Assembly (NCBI GenBank): GCA_002869145.1
Contig: PKTM01000010.1
Location: forward strand, 25,033 to 89,032
Source of the DNA: Denitrovibrio sp.
GTDB lineage: Bacteria; Chrysiogenota; Deferribacteres; Deferribacterales; Geovibrionaceae
Length of the DNA stretch: 64,000 nt
Direction of reading: 5' to 3'
Under the pieces are notes generated by a model. The model made no database searches. It saw nothing but the letters and a program-made list of their open reading frames with translations, and was not told where the DNA came from. The position numbers and the translations under genes are program-made. Below, one piece after another: positions 47,117 through 62,271 of this stretch (positions are counted from its first letter, which is position 1; every line of letters starts with the position of its first letter).

Positions 47117-47941
47117 ATGCTTATAGGTTCACACCAATCAATAAAAAAATCTATTGACCTAAGTATAAAGAGGGCACTTGCAGACGGCTGTGAGTGCCTT
47201 CAGGTCTTTGTAAAGAACAACAACAGATGGAAAGTGAAAAAGATATCTGAAGAAGAGGCTGAAAAGTTTAAATCAGCTTTATCAGAGTCTGGTTTAAAAG
47301 TCTGTACTCACGCATCTTATATCATAAACCTTGCATCTTTCAAAGATGATGTTTATGAAAAATCTATAAAATCTTATTACGATGAACTTTCCAGATGCGA
47401 CACATTAAATATTCCTTTTTATGTGATACATCCGGGGTCTCACCTTGAAAACGGAGAGGAAGCCGGGATAAAGCGTATATCAGAATCAATAGACAAGGCT
47501 TACGATAAGGGTTATAAGTGTATGACACTGCTTGAGATGGTTGCTGGACAAGGAACAAACATCGGCTACAGCATACAGAACCTGCTGGATATAATAGATT
47601 CATCTGCGCATACGAAAAAGATTGGCATCTGTCTTGATTCGGCACATATGTTTAGTGCTGGTTACGATATAAAAGATAATTATGACGAAGTGTTTACAGA
47701 GTTATTTGACGCCTTTGGCGACAAGATAAAAGTTTTTCACCTTAACGACAGCAAAAAGCCGCTTTCAAGCAAACTGGACAGGCACGAGCTGATAGGCAAG
47801 GGTGAAATAGGAACTGACTTTTTTAAAAAAGTTATTAACGACAAGAGGTTCAGCGAGATTCTCGGTATACTTGAGACTCCTGTGGATGAAAACTATAAAG
47901 AAGAGATAGAATTACTTAAATCCTTTAGGAGTCAACGATAG
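47117..47941 (+). CDS. nfo: Deoxyribonuclease IV (endonuclease IV)
   Basis: This 274-residue AP endonuclease is a TIM barrel. IGSHQSI at the start, FYVIHPGSHLENGEEAGI, LLEMVAGQGTNIGYSI, IGICLDSAHMFSAGYDI, VFHLNDSKKPLSSKLDRHE and IGKGEIGTDFF contain the three-zinc ligands. It cuts DNA at abasic sites. It is co-transcribed with fbp, with a 5-base spacer and a weak ribosome site. Confidence 0.94.
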   Translation: MLIGSHQSIKKSIDLSIKRALADGCECLQVFVKNNNRWKVKKISEEEAEKFKSALSESGLKVCTHASYIINLASFKDDVYEKSIKSYYDELSRCDTLNIPFYVIHPGSHLENGEEAGIKRISESIDKAYDKGYKCMTLLEMVAGQGTNIGYSIQNLLDIIDSSAHTKKIGICLDSAHMFSAGYDIKDNYDEVFTELFDAFGDKIKVFHLNDSKKPLSSKLDRHELIGKGEIGTDFFKKVINDKRFSEILGILETPVDENYKEEIELLKSFRSQR

Positions 47942-47970
47942 ATTTTGGCTTCCTGAAGACATATAATATT

Positions 47971-48060
47971 ATTTCCATGGATGGAAATCGGCGTGTGTAG
48001 CGAAGAATAACTTGTTATGCGCGAGCGTATTGGCATTTTTTTTCATGAATGAAAAAAATG
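47971..48060. repeat. Two-hairpin intergenic element (type A)
   Basis: ATTTCCATGGATGGAAAT (47971-47988; 7-bp stem, TGGA loop) is followed 32 bases later by GCGAGC and, 7 bases on, by a 12-bp stem hairpin at 48034-48060 (CATTTTTTTTCA-TGAA-TGA...ATG). The layout is like the element at 51544-51642. It may be a dispersed repeat or a structured RNA. Confidence 0.5.
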
Positions 48061-48082
48061 CTTAACAAATCGGAGAACTGAA

Positions 48083-49627
48083 ATGGATGTGACTGAAACT
48101 CCTGTTGTAACCATAATGAAAGATATTCTGAAACCTGACAAAATAATTGAAACACATGCTTCAACAGTTTTTATCAAAGATGATTTTGTTTACAAGGTCA
48201 AAAAAAATGTAGACTTTGGTTTTCTTGACTACTCTTCAAAAAAAAAGCGCAAAGCGATGTGTATAGTAGAAAAGGACCTGAATGAAAGGTTCTGTGACGA
48301 TATATATATAGAAGTTCTTAAAATAGCCAGACGTGAGAAAAACTTTGTACTGGTTCCTTTTGACAGCTCTCTGCTTACAGTTGACTACTGTCTTAAAATG
48401 AAGCGGATACCTGATAACGCTTTTCTTTCTAATAAATTAAAAAATAGTGAGATCACTTCAGAAGATGCTTTTGACATAGGTGTTAAAATAGCCGAACTTT
48501 TCAAAAGTGCAAAATCAGACCCTTTCGCCGCTGAACATAACGGCAGCGCAGCCATTGTCAGACAAAACTGTTTAGAAAACTTTCATCAGATGCGTGATTA
48601 TCATGGCAAATTTATTGATAAAAAGCTGGCTGATTTTATCGAAAAGCAAACGGTGAGGTTTCTGGATGAATTCCATGAACTGCTTGATCAAAGAGTCAAA
48701 GATGGCTTTGTTATCGATGGTCATGGCGACCTCCGCCTTGAACACATATACATAGAGGGTTCGCAGTTCGGGCTTATAGACTGCATAGAGTTTAACAAGC
48801 GCTTTCGCTATAACGATGTGATGTCTGAAATAGCTTTCCTATGTATGGAATCTGACCAGATAGGTGATACAGCCTTTTCTGACTGCCTAATGGACTGGTT
48901 CCTCAGTGTATATAACGATGATGCCAGTAGTAAGCTTATAAACTTTTACAATGCTTACAGAGCTTGTGTGCGGGCAAAGGTTGCCTGTCTGATGCTTTCA
49001 GGGAAGGATGAAAGCTGGGATATGTACGAAGCGAAAAAGAATGAGGCAGCGAAGTTTATAGATATGGCAGCTGTTTACTCCCTCAGCATGTTTGACACTA
49101 AGGCTATGATATTTTATGGACTGATGGCCAGCGGGAAAACAAAAAACGCACGCATCTTTGCTGAGACTTTTCCTGTAGAACATGTAAATACAGACGTAGT
49201 CCGCAAGCTTATGCATGGGATAGATCCCGACAGTAATGTCCATGTGGATTACGGCTCTGATCTTTATTCCAAAGAAAATTCTATTAAACTTTATGAAACA
49301 CTGGGAGCAATGGCACAGAGTAACAGAGACCTTGGGCGCATTACGCTCATTGACGGCAGTTTTAGCAAACTTGAATACATTGACCACTTGAAAAGTAATT
49401 ATAAAGGCGAATATATAAAAATGAGATTTTTTGCTCCTGATGATGTTGTTATGGACAGGTTAAAAAAGAGAATGGACAAAGTTACTGCATCAGACGGCAG
49501 ACCAGAGATATATGAAAAACAAAAGGCATCTGCCGAAGAGATAGGGGCAGATTTTGAGATAGAAACTACGGGCAAAACCGAAGACAACATCAGAGCCGTT
49601 ATTGGATACTTAATTGACAAAGCTTAA
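48083..49627 (+). CDS. Aminoglycoside-phosphotransferase-like / P-loop kinase two-domain protein
   Basis: This 514-residue protein has two parts. Residues about 1-330 are an APH-type kinase fold (VKKNVDFGFLDYSS, the catalytic block FVIDGHGDLRLEHIYIEG, GLIDCIEFNKRFRYNDVMSE). Residues about 340-514 are a P-loop AAA/zeta-toxin-like domain (MIFYGLMASGKTKNARIFAE; VNTDVVRKLMHG). This pairing is widespread and usually annotated as a bifunctional protein. There is no evidence for drug resistance and the substrate is unknown. It overlaps the next gene by 14 bases. Confidence 0.82.
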   Translation: MDVTETPVVTIMKDILKPDKIIETHASTVFIKDDFVYKVKKNVDFGFLDYSSKKKRKAMCIVEKDLNERFCDDIYIEVLKIARREKNFVLVPFDSSLLTVDYCLKMKRIPDNAFLSNKLKNSEITSEDAFDIGVKIAELFKSAKSDPFAAEHNGSAAIVRQNCLENFHQMRDYHGKFIDKKLADFIEKQTVRFLDEFHELLDQRVKDGFVIDGHGDLRLEHIYIEGSQFGLIDCIEFNKRFRYNDVMSEIAFLCMESDQIGDTAFSDCLMDWFLSVYNDDASSKLINFYNAYRACVRAKVACLMLSGKDESWDMYEAKKNEAAKFIDMAAVYSLSMFDTKAMIFYGLMASGKTKNARIFAETFPVEHVNTDVVRKLMHGIDPDSNVHVDYGSDLYSKENSIKLYETLGAMAQSNRDLGRITLIDGSFSKLEYIDHLKSNYKGEYIKMRFFAPDDVVMDRLKKRMDKVTASDGRPEIYEKQKASAEEIGADFEIETTGKTEDNIRAVIGYLIDKA

Positions 49628-50606
49628 CTACGAAATAACACAGGTGAACTCACCTTTTGAGGACACCGCTTTTTTTATGAGAAATGTTTACAAACCGGAT
49701 GCTCTTCTTTTCGACTGCGGGCGTATAGGAGCTCTTTCAAACAGCGATGTGCTCTCCATAACTGAGATATTAATCAGTCATACCCACATAGACCATTTTT
49801 ATGGCTTTGACAGAATATTAAGAGGAACATTGCTTTCAGGTAAGAAGTTCAGAGTTTTCGGCCCTCCGGGAATAATAAAGAATGTTCAGGGAAAAATAGA
49901 CTCATACACATGGAACCTGATAAAGAGTTACCCGGTCAGCTACGAGGTTATTGAGCTGAACGAAGATGAAAATGAGTTTAAAACAGCAGGTTTTTCAGCC
50001 GCAAACGGTTTCGAACGTGAAGAAGGGAGTATAAAACGCTCTGAGCTTCGCTTGAGCGGTGATTTCCGTCTTGATTTTACTTTTTTCGACCACAGAGTGC
50101 CTTCTGTGGGTTACCGTGTTACAGAGCCGCCTATGGTTTCTGTGGTGAAAGAAAAAATCGCTACTAACGGATTTGTTTCAGGGAAATGGCTGGCTGAGCT
50201 CAAAGACAAAGTGCTTGCAGGCGAACTGAGTGGAAAGATAGAAGCTGAAACCTCAGACGGCTTGAAACTTATGAGTGTCGGTGATGTGGCTGAAAAGATT
50301 ATCGAACCTGTTAAGTCCCAATCAGTAACATACATTACCGATATTGCTCCATCTTTTGAAAATGTTCAAAAGGCTATTAAATTTGCCAACGATTCAACAG
50401 TTTTGCTTATTGAGGGGATGTTCATGAAAAAGGACGTTCTTCATGCAAATTTCAAAAAACATCTTACACTTGATCTGTCAAAGTATATTTATCACGAAAG
50501 CGGTTCTGAGCTTGCACGTTTTTTTCACTTTACATCAAGGTATGATTCCTGCAAGAAAGAACTTTATGACATGCTTTACAAGGGTATGAAAGGTAAGATA
50601 CTTTAA
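49614..50606 (+). CDS. Metallo-beta-lactamase-fold protein, RNase Z-like
   Basis: This 330-residue protein has the metal motif ISHTHIDHFYGFDRILRG (HxHxDH type) and EGMFMKKDVLH. YHESGSELARFFHFTSRY replaces the usual exosite block, with a late His in the FHFTSRY stretch. It is like ribonuclease Z but divergent; the substrate is uncertain. The start is TTG 49614, overlapping the preceding gene by 14 bases. An in-frame ATG at 49677 would remove the first beta strand. Confidence 0.75.
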   Translation: MTKLNYEITQVNSPFEDTAFFMRNVYKPDALLFDCGRIGALSNSDVLSITEILISHTHIDHFYGFDRILRGTLLSGKKFRVFGPPGIIKNVQGKIDSYTWNLIKSYPVSYEVIELNEDENEFKTAGFSAANGFEREEGSIKRSELRLSGDFRLDFTFFDHRVPSVGYRVTEPPMVSVVKEKIATNGFVSGKWLAELKDKVLAGELSGKIEAETSDGLKLMSVGDVAEKIIEPVKSQSVTYITDIAPSFENVQKAIKFANDSTVLLIEGMFMKKDVLHANFKKHLTLDLSKYIYHESGSELARFFHFTSRYDSCKKELYDMLYKGMKGKIL

Positions 50607-50676
50607 CATGATATAATGTTTTATTATAAGAAACATTATAACTGTAATATTAATAATTTTTGTTCTGGTGATAATT

Positions 50677-51534
50677 ATGAATTCTCGAACGACAAAATAT
50701 GACCTTAATCCGTTTAAAGATCTTTCAGAAGTAGACAGCAAAGAGCTTCTTGATCTGGACTGGAAAAAGGCTGCGACAGAAGAGGTAAAACTTGACGACA
50801 ACTACCCTCAGTACGTAGTTAAAGGCGATGTTGGAATACTTATAATACATGGTTTTACAGGTTCGCCTCTGGAGATGCAGCCTGTAGCAGAATTTCTGCA
50901 AGAACAAGGGTATACAACTTATCAGGTAAGACTGGCAGGACACGGTTCAAAACCTGAAAACTTAAATCTTACAACCTATAAGGACTGGTATGAATCTGCC
51001 AGATACGGATATTTCGTTCTGAAGCGTACCTGTCGGAAGGTTTTTGTCATGGGTGAGTCTATGGGTGGGTTGGTTGCGCTTTCGGTGGCAGGTCTGAATT
51101 TTGCTGACGGAGCAATTCTCCTGGCTCCATGTATAAAAATGCGCAGCCGTATCACAAACCTTAGTCCGTTTCTCAGCCGTTTTATAAAAATGCTGCCGAA
51201 ATTTGAAGTGGCTGACTGGTCAAATGACCTCAGTGATATTTACTACGATAAATGGCCGGTAGTGGGAATTTACCAGTTACTTATGTATACTAGATATATA
51301 GAGGCAAATATGGATAAATTCGACTTCCCAGTGATAGCGTTTCAATTCATAAATGATGCTGTTGTTAGTGGAAAAGCTACTCGTGATTTTATTGCAAAAG
51401 CACCTTCTGCTGACAAAGAATATTTCGAATTTCCAGATAAAAAGATGCACAACCACATACTGGCCTCTGAAAAAAATGTTTACAGGTCTGAAATGTTCAC
51501 TAGAATAGGTGACTGGTTGAAAGAGAGAAATTAG
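50677..51534 (+). CDS. Alpha/beta hydrolase (carboxylesterase/monoacylglycerol lipase type)
   Basis: This 285-residue hydrolase has the oxyanion strand ILIIHGFTGSPLEMQPVAEF, nucleophile elbow MGESMGGLVALS, a late Asp in FQFINDAVVSG and His in KKMHNHILASEKN. It resembles bacterial carboxylesterase Est30 and monoglyceride lipases. The ATG at 50677 follows GGTG; GTG 50668 is an alternative start. The last 18 bases differ from a downstream copy of the gene end (see repeat 51490-51681), so its C-terminus LKERN may be recent. Confidence 0.82.
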   Translation: MNSRTTKYDLNPFKDLSEVDSKELLDLDWKKAATEEVKLDDNYPQYVVKGDVGILIIHGFTGSPLEMQPVAEFLQEQGYTTYQVRLAGHGSKPENLNLTTYKDWYESARYGYFVLKRTCRKVFVMGESMGGLVALSVAGLNFADGAILLAPCIKMRSRITNLSPFLSRFIKMLPKFEVADWSNDLSDIYYDKWPVVGIYQLLMYTRYIEANMDKFDFPVIAFQFINDAVVSGKATRDFIAKAPSADKEYFEFPDKKMHNHILASEKNVYRSEMFTRIGDWLKERN

Positions 51535-51681
51535 TTTCAGCAAAGGCACAGGATGTGCCTCACGGAGCAAAGCGTAGTGGGAGAGAGGCTTGCTTTTAAC
51601 AAGGCGAACTCTTAAGAAAAAACTTCAGGACGAAAGTTTTTTCTCTGGTTATCAGAAATGTTCACTAGAATAGGTGACTGG
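51490..51681. repeat. GGA-hairpin element flanked by a 27-base duplication of the hydrolase gene end
   Basis: Bases 51490-51516, inside the hydrolase gene, are repeated exactly at 51655-51681. The second copy reads on as a second gene end: SEMFTRIGDWLNKRG and a stop. Between the copies are about 138 bases with a GGA-loop hairpin (AGGCACAGGATGTGCCT, 51544-51560), GCGAAC, 7 bases, and a second hairpin (AAAAAACTT...AAGTTTTTT, 51617-51642) with AGGAC in its loop. This fits insertion of a short non-coding element with target duplication (inference). Confidence 0.6.
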
Positions 51682-51703
51682 CTGAATAAAAGAGGTTAAT
51701 GAG

Positions 51704-52658: not shown

Positions 52659-55013
52659 CTACCCCTGGTGTTCTGTACGTCTTATAATTTCTTCTTGAAG
52701 CTCATCAGTAATATCAACGAAATAGTCAGAATATCCTGCAACCCTTACAATAAGGTCACGGTAATTTTCCGGGTGAACCTGTGCATCCCGAAGTATCTCT
52801 TCGTCCATAACATTGAATTGTATATGGTGTCCGTCCATACGAAAATATGAGCGGACAAGTTTACAAACATTGTCTATACCTTCGTCTGTATACATGAATT
52901 CTTTGGAGAAACGCTGGTTTAGCAGTGTTCCGCCTGTGCGGATATGATCTATCTTCGCAGCAGATTTGATAACAGATGTAGGGCCGTGTCTGTCTGCTCC
53001 CTGAACAGGTGAAATACCTTCAGAAAGCGGTATTTTTGCCTTTCTTCCGTCCGGTAAAGCGCCTATGACACTTCCGAAATAAACGTGGGAAGTGGTTGGA
53101 AGAAGATTTATTCTGTGGTGACCGCCTTTAGAGTTTGGACGTCCGTTAACTGCATCGAAGAATATCTCAAAAATATCGGTCATTATATCATCTGCATAAT
53201 CATCGTCGTTGCCGTATTTCGGAGTGTCTTCAAGCAGTATTGTACGCAGTTCGTCATAGCCTTCGAAATCATCATCCAGAGCTTTTTTCAGGTCTGCAAG
53301 AGATATAAGGCTTTTATCAAAGACGTTATACTTTAAAGATGCAAGTGAGTCTGTGAGCGAGCCAAGTCCAACACCCTGAATGTAAGTGGTGTTATACCTT
53401 GCCCCTCCGGCATTGTAGTCTTTTCCGTTTTTAATGCAGTCCTCTGTAAGTAACGAGAGAAAAGGTACTGGAATATATTTTGCAAACAATTTTTCTATTA
53501 CAATATTGCCTTTTATTTTGATGTCTATGAAATAATTAAGCTGTTTCTTGTAGGTTATCATAAGTTCGTTAAAAGTTTTAAAATCAGTTGGCAGCTGTGG
53601 CCCTAACTGCTTATCTGTTAGCTTATCATAACCTCCGTTCAGAGTTATTTCTAATATCTTTGCCAAATTAAAATACCCAGAGAGGATGTATGATTCTGTT
53701 CCGAATGCCCCAGATTCTATACAGCCTGATGCGCCGCCGTTTCTGGCATCAACAATATCTTTACCCTGTCTCATAAGCTCCTGTATTATAGCATCAGTGT
53801 TAAATATGGAAGGCTGTCCGAAGCCTGTTTTTACTATATTAAGGGCACGCTTCAAAAACCTGTCGGGGTTCTTTTTGGATATCTGCACCATAGAGCTGGG
53901 CTGAAGAAGCCTCATCTCTTCAATAACTTCCAGAAGTACATAAGATAGGTCATTAACCGCATCGGAACCGTCCTCTTTGACACCGCCAATATTTATCAGG
54001 GCGAAGTCTGTGTAGGTGTTTGATTCTTTCGCTGTTATTCCTACCTTTGGAGGGGCAGGGTGGTTGTTGAATTTTATCCAGAAAGAGCAAAGCAGCTCTT
54101 TTGCGCTATCTTCAGTTATGCGGCCAGCTTCTAGATCTGCTTTATAAAAAGGGTAGAGGTGTTGATCGAGTCTGCCGGGGTTAAAAGCATCCCACGGGTT
54201 GGTCTCTGTAATAACACCAATATGGATGAACCAGTACATCTGTAGTGCTTCCCAGAAGGTTTCAGGCGCATTTCTAGGCACTCTCATGCAAATTGTGCTC
54301 ATCTCCTGAAGTTCCAGTTTTCGTTTGGTGTCAGTCTCTTTATCTGCAAGCTCTTTTAAGGCCTGAGCATTTCTCTCTGCAAAATTAATTATCGCCTCAG
54401 CAGCTATCTCCATAGCTTTCAGCTCTTCATTCTTATCGAAAGCATCAGTGTCGTTATAGAAATCCAAAGCTTTCTGAGCTTCTTTCACTTCATGTATAAG
54501 TCCCTGTAGCCCAGTTTTATATATTTTGCCTCCCATAACAGTGTGTCCGGGGGCGCGCTGTTCCTGAAACTCTGTGAAAACTCCTGCCTCGTAGGCGTTT
54601 TTCCATTCATCAGACATATGCATCATTACTTTTTCACGGTGGGATTTACCGTTCCAGTAAGGAAAAACAATATCGTCGTGCATTTTTCTGTTTTCGCTGT
54701 CTACTTTGAAAGAGACTTTCGGGCGGTTATGAAGCATGTCGAAGTCTTCTTTGGAGTGAATGCAAACTTCGGGGTAGGTGGGGGTCGCTTTTGCACGGGG
54801 ACCGCGTTCACCTACTATCAGCTCTCCATCTGCAAACCATAGCTTTTTTTTATCCATTATATGATAAAACGCTTTCGCACGCTGAACAGGGATAGAAAAC
54901 CCGTCAGCAGCGCCGCTTTCATAAAACTCTGTAAGCAGAACGCCTCTTTCTGATGAAACAGTCTCTATTGCATCCAGTGATTCATTTCTAAGTTTTTTTA
55001 TTCTGTCTGTCAT
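52659..55013 (-). CDS. hypD: Glycyl-radical enzyme, trans-4-hydroxy-L-proline dehydratase HypD
   Basis: This 784-residue enzyme is of the pyruvate-formate-lyase superfamily. The radical Gly lies in LIVRVAGYSDYF, and the active-site Cys with the general base Glu in NGGASGCIESGAFG. WDAFNPGRLDQHLYPFY, NNHPAPPKVGITAKESNTYT, RLLQPSSMVQISKKNP and TPKYGNDDDYAD closely match characterised HypD from memory. The CIE motif differs from choline lyase (CVEP) and glycerol dehydratase. It removes water from hydroxyproline, giving P5C. It is co-transcribed with its activase (5-base spacer, GGAGG inside the activase end) and convergent with proC. Oxygen-sensitive, so used under anoxia. Confidence 0.88.
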   Translation of the reverse strand: MTDRIKKLRNESLDAIETVSSERGVLLTEFYESGAADGFSIPVQRAKAFYHIMDKKKLWFADGELIVGERGPRAKATPTYPEVCIHSKEDFDMLHNRPKVSFKVDSENRKMHDDIVFPYWNGKSHREKVMMHMSDEWKNAYEAGVFTEFQEQRAPGHTVMGGKIYKTGLQGLIHEVKEAQKALDFYNDTDAFDKNEELKAMEIAAEAIINFAERNAQALKELADKETDTKRKLELQEMSTICMRVPRNAPETFWEALQMYWFIHIGVITETNPWDAFNPGRLDQHLYPFYKADLEAGRITEDSAKELLCSFWIKFNNHPAPPKVGITAKESNTYTDFALINIGGVKEDGSDAVNDLSYVLLEVIEEMRLLQPSSMVQISKKNPDRFLKRALNIVKTGFGQPSIFNTDAIIQELMRQGKDIVDARNGGASGCIESGAFGTESYILSGYFNLAKILEITLNGGYDKLTDKQLGPQLPTDFKTFNELMITYKKQLNYFIDIKIKGNIVIEKLFAKYIPVPFLSLLTEDCIKNGKDYNAGGARYNTTYIQGVGLGSLTDSLASLKYNVFDKSLISLADLKKALDDDFEGYDELRTILLEDTPKYGNDDDYADDIMTDIFEIFFDAVNGRPNSKGGHHRINLLPTTSHVYFGSVIGALPDGRKAKIPLSEGISPVQGADRHGPTSVIKSAAKIDHIRTGGTLLNQRFSKEFMYTDEGIDNVCKLVRSYFRMDGHHIQFNVMDEEILRDAQVHPENYRDLIVRVAGYSDYFVDITDELQEEIIRRTEHQG

Positions 55014-55018
55014 GCGTG

Positions 55019-55810
55019 CTAACCTCCGATCCGTACCCTTATTCCGTGGTTTTTAAAGAAGAGTTCAAGCTCTTTCATTCTTTCTTCTGTGGGCTGCTGT
55101 ATGTCTTCCATAAAATAGTCCATACCCAGTCGCCTGTATTTATCCCTGCCTGTTGAGTGGTAGGGGATCATATCCATCTGAAGATTTTCAAAACCAGATG
55201 CGAATTCTGCAAGTGCCTTAGTGTTATGCTCTGTGTCAGTTATCCCGGGGATAACAGGGAACCGAAGTCTTATATCACTTTCGGATTCATATATAGTTTT
55301 GAAATTCTTCAGTATCTGTTTATTAGACACTCCGCAGTATTTTTCGTGTTCTTTCACATCCATAAGCTTGATGTCAAAGAGGAATAGGTCAGTTATCGGG
55401 ATCACTTGTTTAAGCACATCTTCACTGACATAGCCTGTGGTGTCTATACATGTAAATATATCATTTTTTTTGCATTCTGAAAGCAGTAAAATTAAAAATT
55501 TATCCTGTAGAAAAACTTCTCCACCAGAAAATGTGACTCCACCACCGGATTCTTCGTAAAAGATTATATCTTTTTTAATTTCAGATATAACTTCCTTTAC
55601 GGTCATCTCTTTTCCTACTGTTTGGGTTGAGTGGTGAATTTTGCCGTCAAGCCTCAATTCTTTTTCGATGGACTGTATTTGAGGTGATCTGCTTTCTGGA
55701 TTGTGACACCATATGCACTTCATGGGACAGCCTTTAAAAAAAACAGTTGTTCTTATTCCCGGCCCATCATGCACTGCATAATGTTTTATGTCAAAGATGG
55801 TTCCTTTAAT
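55019..55810 (-). CDS. hypE: Glycyl-radical enzyme activase HypE (radical SAM), apparent ATT start
   Basis: The radical-SAM cluster motif is KGCPMKCIWCHNPESRS (CxxxCxxC). GGGVTFSGGEVFLQDKF, CIDTTGYVS, LFDIKLMD and PVIPGITDTEHN are the other family blocks. It installs the radical on HypD. Homology continues upstream of the first GTG (55774): KGTIFDIKHYAVHDGPGIRT is the normal family beginning. In that frame there is no ATG, GTG or TTG before a TGA; the only initiator-like codon is ATT (55808-55810), with GAAGGTG about 5 bases upstream. So translation either begins at the rare ATT or the ATG was lost. A shorter GTG 55774 start would delete the first strand. Confidence 0.82.
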   Translation of the reverse strand: MKGTIFDIKHYAVHDGPGIRTTVFFKGCPMKCIWCHNPESRSPQIQSIEKELRLDGKIHHSTQTVGKEMTVKEVISEIKKDIIFYEESGGGVTFSGGEVFLQDKFLILLLSECKKNDIFTCIDTTGYVSEDVLKQVIPITDLFLFDIKLMDVKEHEKYCGVSNKQILKNFKTIYESESDIRLRFPVIPGITDTEHNTKALAEFASGFENLQMDMIPYHSTGRDKYRRLGMDYFMEDIQQPTEERMKELELFFKNHGIRVRIGG

Positions 55811-62150: not shown

Positions 62151-62198
62151 TACTATACTCCTTGTTTACTATATTGGCTTTTTTGCAGCTATGGATGC

Positions 62199-62232
62199 CT
62201 TAGCAGGTTCGCCATTGCTTAGCAAAAGTTCG
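62199..62232. repeat. Pair of direct repeats in the prodh-pruA spacer
   Basis: CTTAGCAGGTTCG (62199-62211) and CTTAGCAAAAGTTCG (62218-62232) are in the same orientation, starts 19 bases apart (about two helical turns). They are flanked by a GGCTGCA...TGCAACC-like inverted pair on the minus strand. Possible regulator site or leader structure before pruA. Confidence 0.4.
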
Positions 62233-62271
62233 GGTTGCATCGTGTGCAGCCAATTAGCCGATATATATTTA

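Follow-up and report, generated by a model that had tools for sequence, protein, structure and literature searches.

The closest described counterparts of the element reported here are RNAs connected with the regulator CsrA and mobile or interspersed DNA repeats. The repeat of CsrB is CAGGA(U/A/C)G, and systematic evolution of ligands by exponential enrichment (SELEX) gave the consensus RUACARGGAUGU, with GGA invariant and, in most ligands, stems of at most 4 contiguous pairs (PMC7652899). CsrA sites tend to occur pairwise (PMC7652899, PMC4333381), and CsrA binding by the TwoAYGGAY RNA (RF01731) is predicted, not proven (PMC4333381). Among DNA repeats, repetitive extragenic palindromic (REP) forms have a single conserved palindrome and, at its foot, a tetranucleotide of the GTAG or GTGG/GGAG type (PMC2817692), and the long direct repeats of IS1549/IS1634 were without a mechanistic model as of a 2008 review (PMC2266710). 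Here we analyze a repeat that occurs twice, as elements 1 and 2, in a stretch of 64,000 nucleotides from Denitrovibrio sp. (assembly GCA_002869145.1, contig PKTM01000010.1, positions 25,033 to 89,032 of the forward strand; hereafter the window). From its distribution, placement, and hairpins we infer, with a probability of roughly 0.5, that its copies are mobile, transcribed RNA elements of gene 3′ ends and that they bind CsrA, probably serving as decoys.

A dispersed repeat family

The two elements lie in intergenic spacers at 47971-48060 and 51544-51642, where a first-pass annotation, made from the letters of the window, had described a GGA-loop palindrome followed by a strong A/T hairpin, and both are present with these parts. 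Their limits and main features are as follows, with scores from the second of the two models introduced below:

47965..48067, plus strand: element 1, a diverged member of the family; 38.7 bits, E value 4.3e-6
47971..47988, plus strand: hairpin 1 of element 1, ATTTCC-ATGGAT-GGAAAT; the loop ATGGAT has the form ANGGAN
about 48033..48061, plus strand: terminal A/T hairpin of element 1, with TGA in the loop instead of GGA
51487..51521, plus strand: left gene-end repeat of element 2, the last codons of the hydrolase gene (50668-51534); 33/35 identical to the right copy
51522..51651, plus strand: element 2, the 130-bp segment between the gene-end repeats; 98.9 bits, E value 4.9e-18
51544..51560, plus strand: hairpin 1 of element 2, AGGCAC-AGGAT-GTGCCT
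51615..51644, plus strand: terminal A/T hairpin of element 2, with CAGGACG in the loop; loop CAGGACGA
51652..51686, plus strand: right gene-end repeat of element 2, now untranslated as far as seen; it continues like the hydrolase gene end of genome G001

The junctions of element 2 were set from the alignment of its flanking repeats. To the left of element 1 is an AP_endonuc_2 gene (47117-47941) and to its right a kinase-like gene (48083-49627), both named by Pfam; for element 1, the insertion ends are not fixed, and no clear repeat flanks it. Hairpin 1 is followed by GCGAGC in element 1 and GCGAAC in element 2, and then in both by 7 bases and an A/T hairpin; the motif GCGA(A/G)C with its exact 7-base spacing, read earlier as a shared layout, is common to these two elements but, judged by eye, only loosely kept across the family. 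Folding z-scores of the two elements are −3.28 and −2.47.

A BLAST search of the 2.88-Mb source genome (29 contigs) with element 2 recovered 7 further places at E values of 2.1e-12 to 1.3e-5, a tandem pair among them, and 12 additional weaker places up to an E value of 10. Six copies were aligned to build the first model, and 15 of the 30 predicted pairs in that alignment show a compensatory change (both sides altered, pair kept) in at least one sequence. This model gave 24 matches in the source genome at E values of ≤10, 19 of them at ≤1e-3, and matches at ≤1e-3 in 15 of 31 genomes, the source genome counted. Run across 100 loci, it returned 125 matches, from which the second model was built with element 1 outside the training set. 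At E values of ≤1e-4, the second model found 630 matches in 24 of the 50 Deferribacterota genomes searched: 448 in all 12 genomes of the window's family (Geovibrionaceae), 175 in 11 of 15 genomes of a second family, 7 in 1 of 4 genomes of a third, and none in the remaining 19. The dispersed repeat family that the first-pass annotation had offered as one option, to be checked by a genome-wide search, is borne out by the BLAST and model matches, which supply the additional copies. Elements are about 100 to 140 bp long; the counts of flanks, loops, and placement below are based on 110 copies, 15 of the 125 matches having been dropped as weak, partial, or neighboring tandem matches.

Element 1 stands at noise level with the first model (12.8 bits, E value 0.14, third in the window) and was found by the second although outside its training, the next match in the window having an E value of 0.086. 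Membership of both window spacers in one dispersed repeat family is strongly supported by these sequence comparisons. The match at 0.086 (positions 2869-2975, 17 bits), third best in the window, resembles an ordinary terminator. The spacer at 62165-62255, suggested earlier as a distant relative, is absent from the 13 matches of the second model in the window at E values of ≤5 and was rejected as a detectable family member. Twenty loci and the window stretch were also scanned against Rfam; all listed matches lay far under the gathering scores, and an existing Rfam family, including the kinds of CsrA-binding RNA, was rejected as the identity of the element.

Insertion and gene-end duplication

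In none of the 11 other genomes of the family do the 330 bases inspected past the hydrolase gene end, the site of element 2, contain an element; the next gene begins at once in 10 of these relatives, and the downstream sequence differs in G003. No element is present at the AP_endonuc_2 gene end, the site of element 1, in the same 11 genomes, where the next gene overlaps or begins within about 35 bases. Because both sites, as read by eye, are empty in all 11 relatives, both elements are insertions. Sites elsewhere, likewise called occupied or empty by eye, are variably filled: the rsmH end is occupied in G001, G007, G009, and G011 and empty in the other 8 of 12 family genomes, and the enolase end is occupied in G004, G006, G007, G009, G010, and G011, partial in G008, and empty in the other 5 of 12. 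Within one genus, some species are occupied and others empty, and the enolase locus of G004, G006, and G007 holds tandem units of gene end plus element.

Direct repeats with a local score of at least 25 flank 36 of the 110 copies versus 2 of 544 mismatched flank pairs (P of about 3e-28). Five of the 36 are tRNA (transfer RNA) clusters or tandem arrays, leaving 31 copies with flank repeats, element 2 among them; 74 copies have no such repeat, and neither, apparently, does element 1. A stricter pass yielded 32 repeats of 24 to 105 bp (median, 53), 9 of them identical; loci L024, L104, L116, L131, L133, L140, and L146 were skipped in the repeat alignment and codon count. The distance from repeat to element ranges from a few bases to about twenty, and the repeated sequence is usually made up of the final codons of the upstream gene, in many cases with the stop codon. 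In the 27 repeats that have a coding frame, the two copies differ at 54 codons, synonymously at 42 and nonsynonymously at 12, versus the roughly 25 to 40% synonymous changes that we estimate for neutral drift of the right copy (P of 6e-16 against 0.25 and 2e-8 against 0.4, with changes treated as independent). The other 5 of the 32, which have no usable frame and stand outside this count, give 2 synonymous and 10 other changes in an arbitrary frame. Given the synonymous bias, most of the divergence between the copies therefore seems to date from a time when both were coding, and exchange between relatives or frequent swapping of the two copies would seem to account for this.

We considered two further routes to these repeats. 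Tandem duplication of gene end plus element, followed by loss, fits the right-hand repeats that run into further elements, as expected of arrays of such units (those of L073, L030, L143, and L098 run into a truncated or second element), but the empty sites in relatives would still require an initial insertion. Template switching with a back-step during replication fits the variable repeat length but does not fit the synonymous bias. A different, second dispersed repeat, of the type CGTCATTGCGAGGAACG...GAAGCAATCTC, lies near several elements, at L104, L108 (G009), and other loci; at L104, the same stretch of some 136 bp containing this repeat type occurs on either side of the element.

The Y1 transposase (PF01797) had no match in 8 of the 12 family genomes, including the copy-rich G003, G004, G006, and G008, and reverse transcriptase (PF00078) had none in 8 of 12, including G003, G006, G008, and G011; both are absent from the element-bearing G003, G006, G007, G008, G010, and G011, in a search that did not extend to DDE transposases. 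Neither enzyme is common to the element-rich genomes, and both were rejected as the general driver. By eye, no REP-type tetranucleotide (GTAG or GTGG/GGAG) was seen at the foot of either hairpin, and no consistent pair of conserved terminal inverted repeats was seen at the repeat-defined junctions. Flanking direct repeats, a feature of target site duplication, are present in 31 of the 110 copies and are long and variable. A phage carrier was probed with one exact pattern, which had 0 matches in viral contigs; this is weak evidence, as a similar pattern matched only 2 genome contigs (Seleniivibrio woodruffii and Deferribacteraceae bacterium UBA6793), and exact patterns are therefore a poor probe.

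The upstream open frame runs in the sense direction in 72 of the 108 copies scored out of 110, and its stop codon lies −8 to +18 bases from the model start in 38 of these 72; the placement script is crude, following a longest-open-frame rule that misassigns some genes. Four copies examined inside the rRNA (ribosomal RNA) operons of G004, G006, and G008, which belong to one genus, are all in sense:

L049 (G004), sense: between 23S and 5S
L066 (G004), sense: between tRNA and 23S
L068 (G008), sense: between tRNA and 23S
L052 (G006), sense: between 16S and tRNA

Placement suggests 3′-end segments of mRNA (messenger RNA) rather than free-standing genes for small RNAs (sRNAs), and the copies in rRNA operons would yield very high, growth-coupled RNA levels.

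Orthologous copies were compared with their surroundings. The rsmH elements of G007 and G011 are identical (96/96) versus 552/600 (48 differences) over the preceding 600 bases, and the enolase elements agree at 103/105 positions versus 318/340 in nearby coding DNA for G007 and G011 and at 96/105 versus 298/340 for G007 and G010. The opposite also occurs, the element being less conserved than its downstream flank, for example, in the pairs L125-L119 (125/140 versus 344/350) and L123-L137 (125/138 versus 335/350). Selection on the element RNA is possible on these figures. A near-identical element (105/105, 104/105, and 104/105) is found at L116 (G007), L133 (G011), and L140 (G010), at an apparent tRNA gene cluster recognized by eye.

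Hairpin loops and a possible link to CsrA

Read 5′ to 3′, a copy comprises hairpin 1 with the loop A(N)GGA(N), a linker often containing CGGAG, a middle hairpin, and a terminal hairpin. The last is A/T-rich, its left arm being rich in A and its right arm in U; a second GGA loop is frequent there, and the loops include AGGAC, AGGAA, and ACGAC. Folding z-scores of six elements range from −2.5 to −5.3. Hairpin 1 was parsed in 107 of the 110 copies, with GGA in 83 loops, TGA or CGA in 16, and other sequences in 8, four of which are parse slips of the ATGGAT hairpin (a few hairpins were mis-parsed, such as CTTC-ATGGAT-GAAG taken with the loop GAA). Terminal loops contain GGA in 74 of 110 copies, TGA or CGA in 22, and neither in 14, versus GGA in 2 and TGA or CGA in 15 of 103 control hairpins, which represent the whole window, the two elements included; the excess of GGA in terminal loops has a P value of about 6e-27, and TGA or CGA is not clearly over background there. 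Both parsed loops hold GGA in 44 of the 110 copies and at least one does in 100, and the mean number of GGA per element is 4.2 versus 2.4 in dinucleotide shuffles.

Complementarity of the terminal arms is 97.6% within a copy and 54 to 67% across copies whose left parts are 70 to 90% identical, as measured in 91 of the 110 copies selected for a good terminal hairpin and GA at the loop, a selection that favors self-complementarity. Two copies whose left parts reach at least 90% identity, in most cases orthologs or tandem neighbors, share the stem, with an arm identity of 89 to 93%. Because arms pair within copies and hardly across them, most insertions differ from one another in their stems but keep the loop type. 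The off-type loops of hairpin 1 among the 107 parsed copies are mostly ATGAN or ACGAN, compared with AGGAN, and never AAGAN. G-to-A is the expected commonest mutation. The ATGAN and ACGAN loops may represent either a second functional loop type or the loss of one G from ATGGAN or ACGGAN.

The source genome has a single CsrA gene with FliW immediately upstream. Among the 31 genomes searched with the first model, CsrA is present in all 15 that bear elements, and the six genomes that lack CsrA have no match (P of 0.011, relatedness ignored). Many element loops match both the CsrB repeat CAGGA(U/A/C)G and the SELEX consensus. The first-pass annotation had proposed sRNAs that bind a CsrA-type protein: binding of such a protein by the element RNA is plausible, given these loops and the presence of CsrA in every element host among the 31, and the free-standing sRNA is disfavored by placement at gene ends.

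Several observations weigh against CsrA binding. Of the 25 genomes with CsrA among the 31, 10 have no match to the first model. Terminal stems reach 17 pairs, unlike those of SELEX ligands, and the A/T-rich terminal hairpin alone could be retained as a terminator. In place of GGA, 16 of 107 first-hairpin loops and 22 of 110 terminal loops show TGA or CGA, and 14 of the 110 terminal loops have none of these triplets; GGA is missing from one-fifth to one-quarter of the loops, if not more. Conservation of orthologous copies is mixed.

Alternative explanations and significance

The strongest competitor of CsrA binding places the hairpins at the DNA level, as a miniature mobile element whose folded single strands would be recognized by a transposase or recombinase, with the loop as its mark and CsrA uninvolved. 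Mobility is evident from the flank repeats and the empty sites in relatives, the tolerance of TGA and CGA in the loops fits a protein other than CsrA, and long, variable duplications of 8 to 514 bp are on record for IS1549/IS1634 (PMC2266710). We nevertheless hold this reading to be unlikely, though worth keeping in view: it leaves the sense bias (72 of 108 copies), with many copies starting at a stop codon, and the several sense copies within rRNA operons to be explained, no conserved terminal inverted repeat is apparent by eye, and Y1 transposase and reverse transcriptase are both absent from six element-bearing genomes (in searches that did not cover DDE transposases). Portable bidirectional terminators or 3′ stabilizers, whose loops would have no special meaning, seem less probable still. 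Such units would account for the location at stop codons and for a terminal A/T hairpin whose left arm is rich in A and whose right arm is rich in U, but they would predict neither GGA loops at both ends, far over background, nor copies within rRNA operons, where termination would do harm. The reading that the two spacers are unrelated and their hairpins due to chance, to which the noise-level score of element 1 with the first model might have pointed, was rejected as scarcely credible in view of the E values of 4.9e-18 and 4.3e-6 with the second model, the 630 matches in the phylum, and the empty sites in relatives.

The reading in which the copies act as CsrA-binding decoys combines the family, insertion, gene-end duplication in about a third of copies, gene-end placement, and hairpin structure, all read from sequence, with transcription, RNA function, and CsrA binding, which we infer. 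A noncoding repeat inserts at gene 3′ ends, most often in sense, and would so become part of an mRNA 3′ region or an rRNA precursor. The element RNA would then present at least two CsrA-type hairpins and may bind a CsrA dimer, and many copies on many transcripts might jointly titrate or buffer CsrA, alongside the protein antagonist FliW. The element may also set the stability of the transcript that it ends. The flanking gene-end repeats would permit exact loss via recombination, leaving the gene unharmed.

If CsrA is bound, these mobile repeats would together form a distributed sponge in an organism that possesses FliW as well. According to a 2020 review, joint action of FliW and sRNAs on CsrA in any species was still to be determined (PMC7652899), and the family makes this question directly testable in Seleniivibrio and its relatives. 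A more ambitious proposal, which we regard as doubtful, is that the repeat is at once a mobile element and a regulatory RNA, and as such a new class: it would spread to gene 3′ ends without a dedicated Y1 transposase or reverse transcriptase, duplicate a 24- to 105-bp gene end such that the gene survives and insertion is exactly reversible, retain its loop but gain a different terminal stem at every new site, pass from one related species to another at matching gene ends, and serve as a genome-wide CsrA buffer beside FliW. CsrA aside, small repeats that duplicate 24 to 105 bp at the 3′ end of a gene, the two copies differing mostly by synonymous changes, point to a mode of spreading that we did not find described among the open-license PMC papers listed by our searches.

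Apart from the repeat, positions 52659-55774 of the window (minus strand) hold a 784-amino-acid open reading frame resembling a glycyl radical enzyme, beside a 251-amino-acid frame resembling a radical-SAM activase, both named by eye from their translations.

Comparison with known systems

Long, variable direct repeats (8 to 514 bp) link the present units to IS1549/IS1634 (PMC2266710), which encode a DDE-type transposase, whereas the units described here have no coding capacity. Repeats resembling miniature inverted-repeat transposable elements (YPAL/RU-2 above all, but also ERIC, RUP, RPE, and Correia) are likewise noncoding, interspersed, and shorter than 200 bp, and YPAL/RU-2 also has variable target duplications, of 3 to 26 bp, without TA ends (PMC2229807). 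Unlike in YPAL/RU-2, the duplications found here measure 24 to 105 bp and are usually gene 3′ ends, the loops are kept while the stems change, and the loops are of an RNA-like GGA type. The TwoAYGGAY RNA has a similar pair of hairpins with GGA loops (PMC4333381) but is absent among the Rfam matches at E values of ≤5 in the 20 loci and ≤10 in the window stretch. RrA, RrB, and RrF of Escherichia coli are, as the copies in rRNA operons may be, CsrA-interacting RNAs from such operons (PMC8144298); they are described as lying between dual terminators at operon ends, whereas the four copies here belong to a dispersed family and lie between the 16S, tRNA, 23S, and 5S genes. The decoy sRNAs CsrB/CsrC and RsmX/Y/Z share with our elements several CAGGA(U/A/C)G-type hairpin loops per short RNA (PMC7652899, PMC4333381). 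Those sRNAs are single-locus genes described in Gammaproteobacteria, whereas the present units are dispersed and mobile, carry few sites each, and are joined to gene 3′ ends in Deferribacterota that have FliW.

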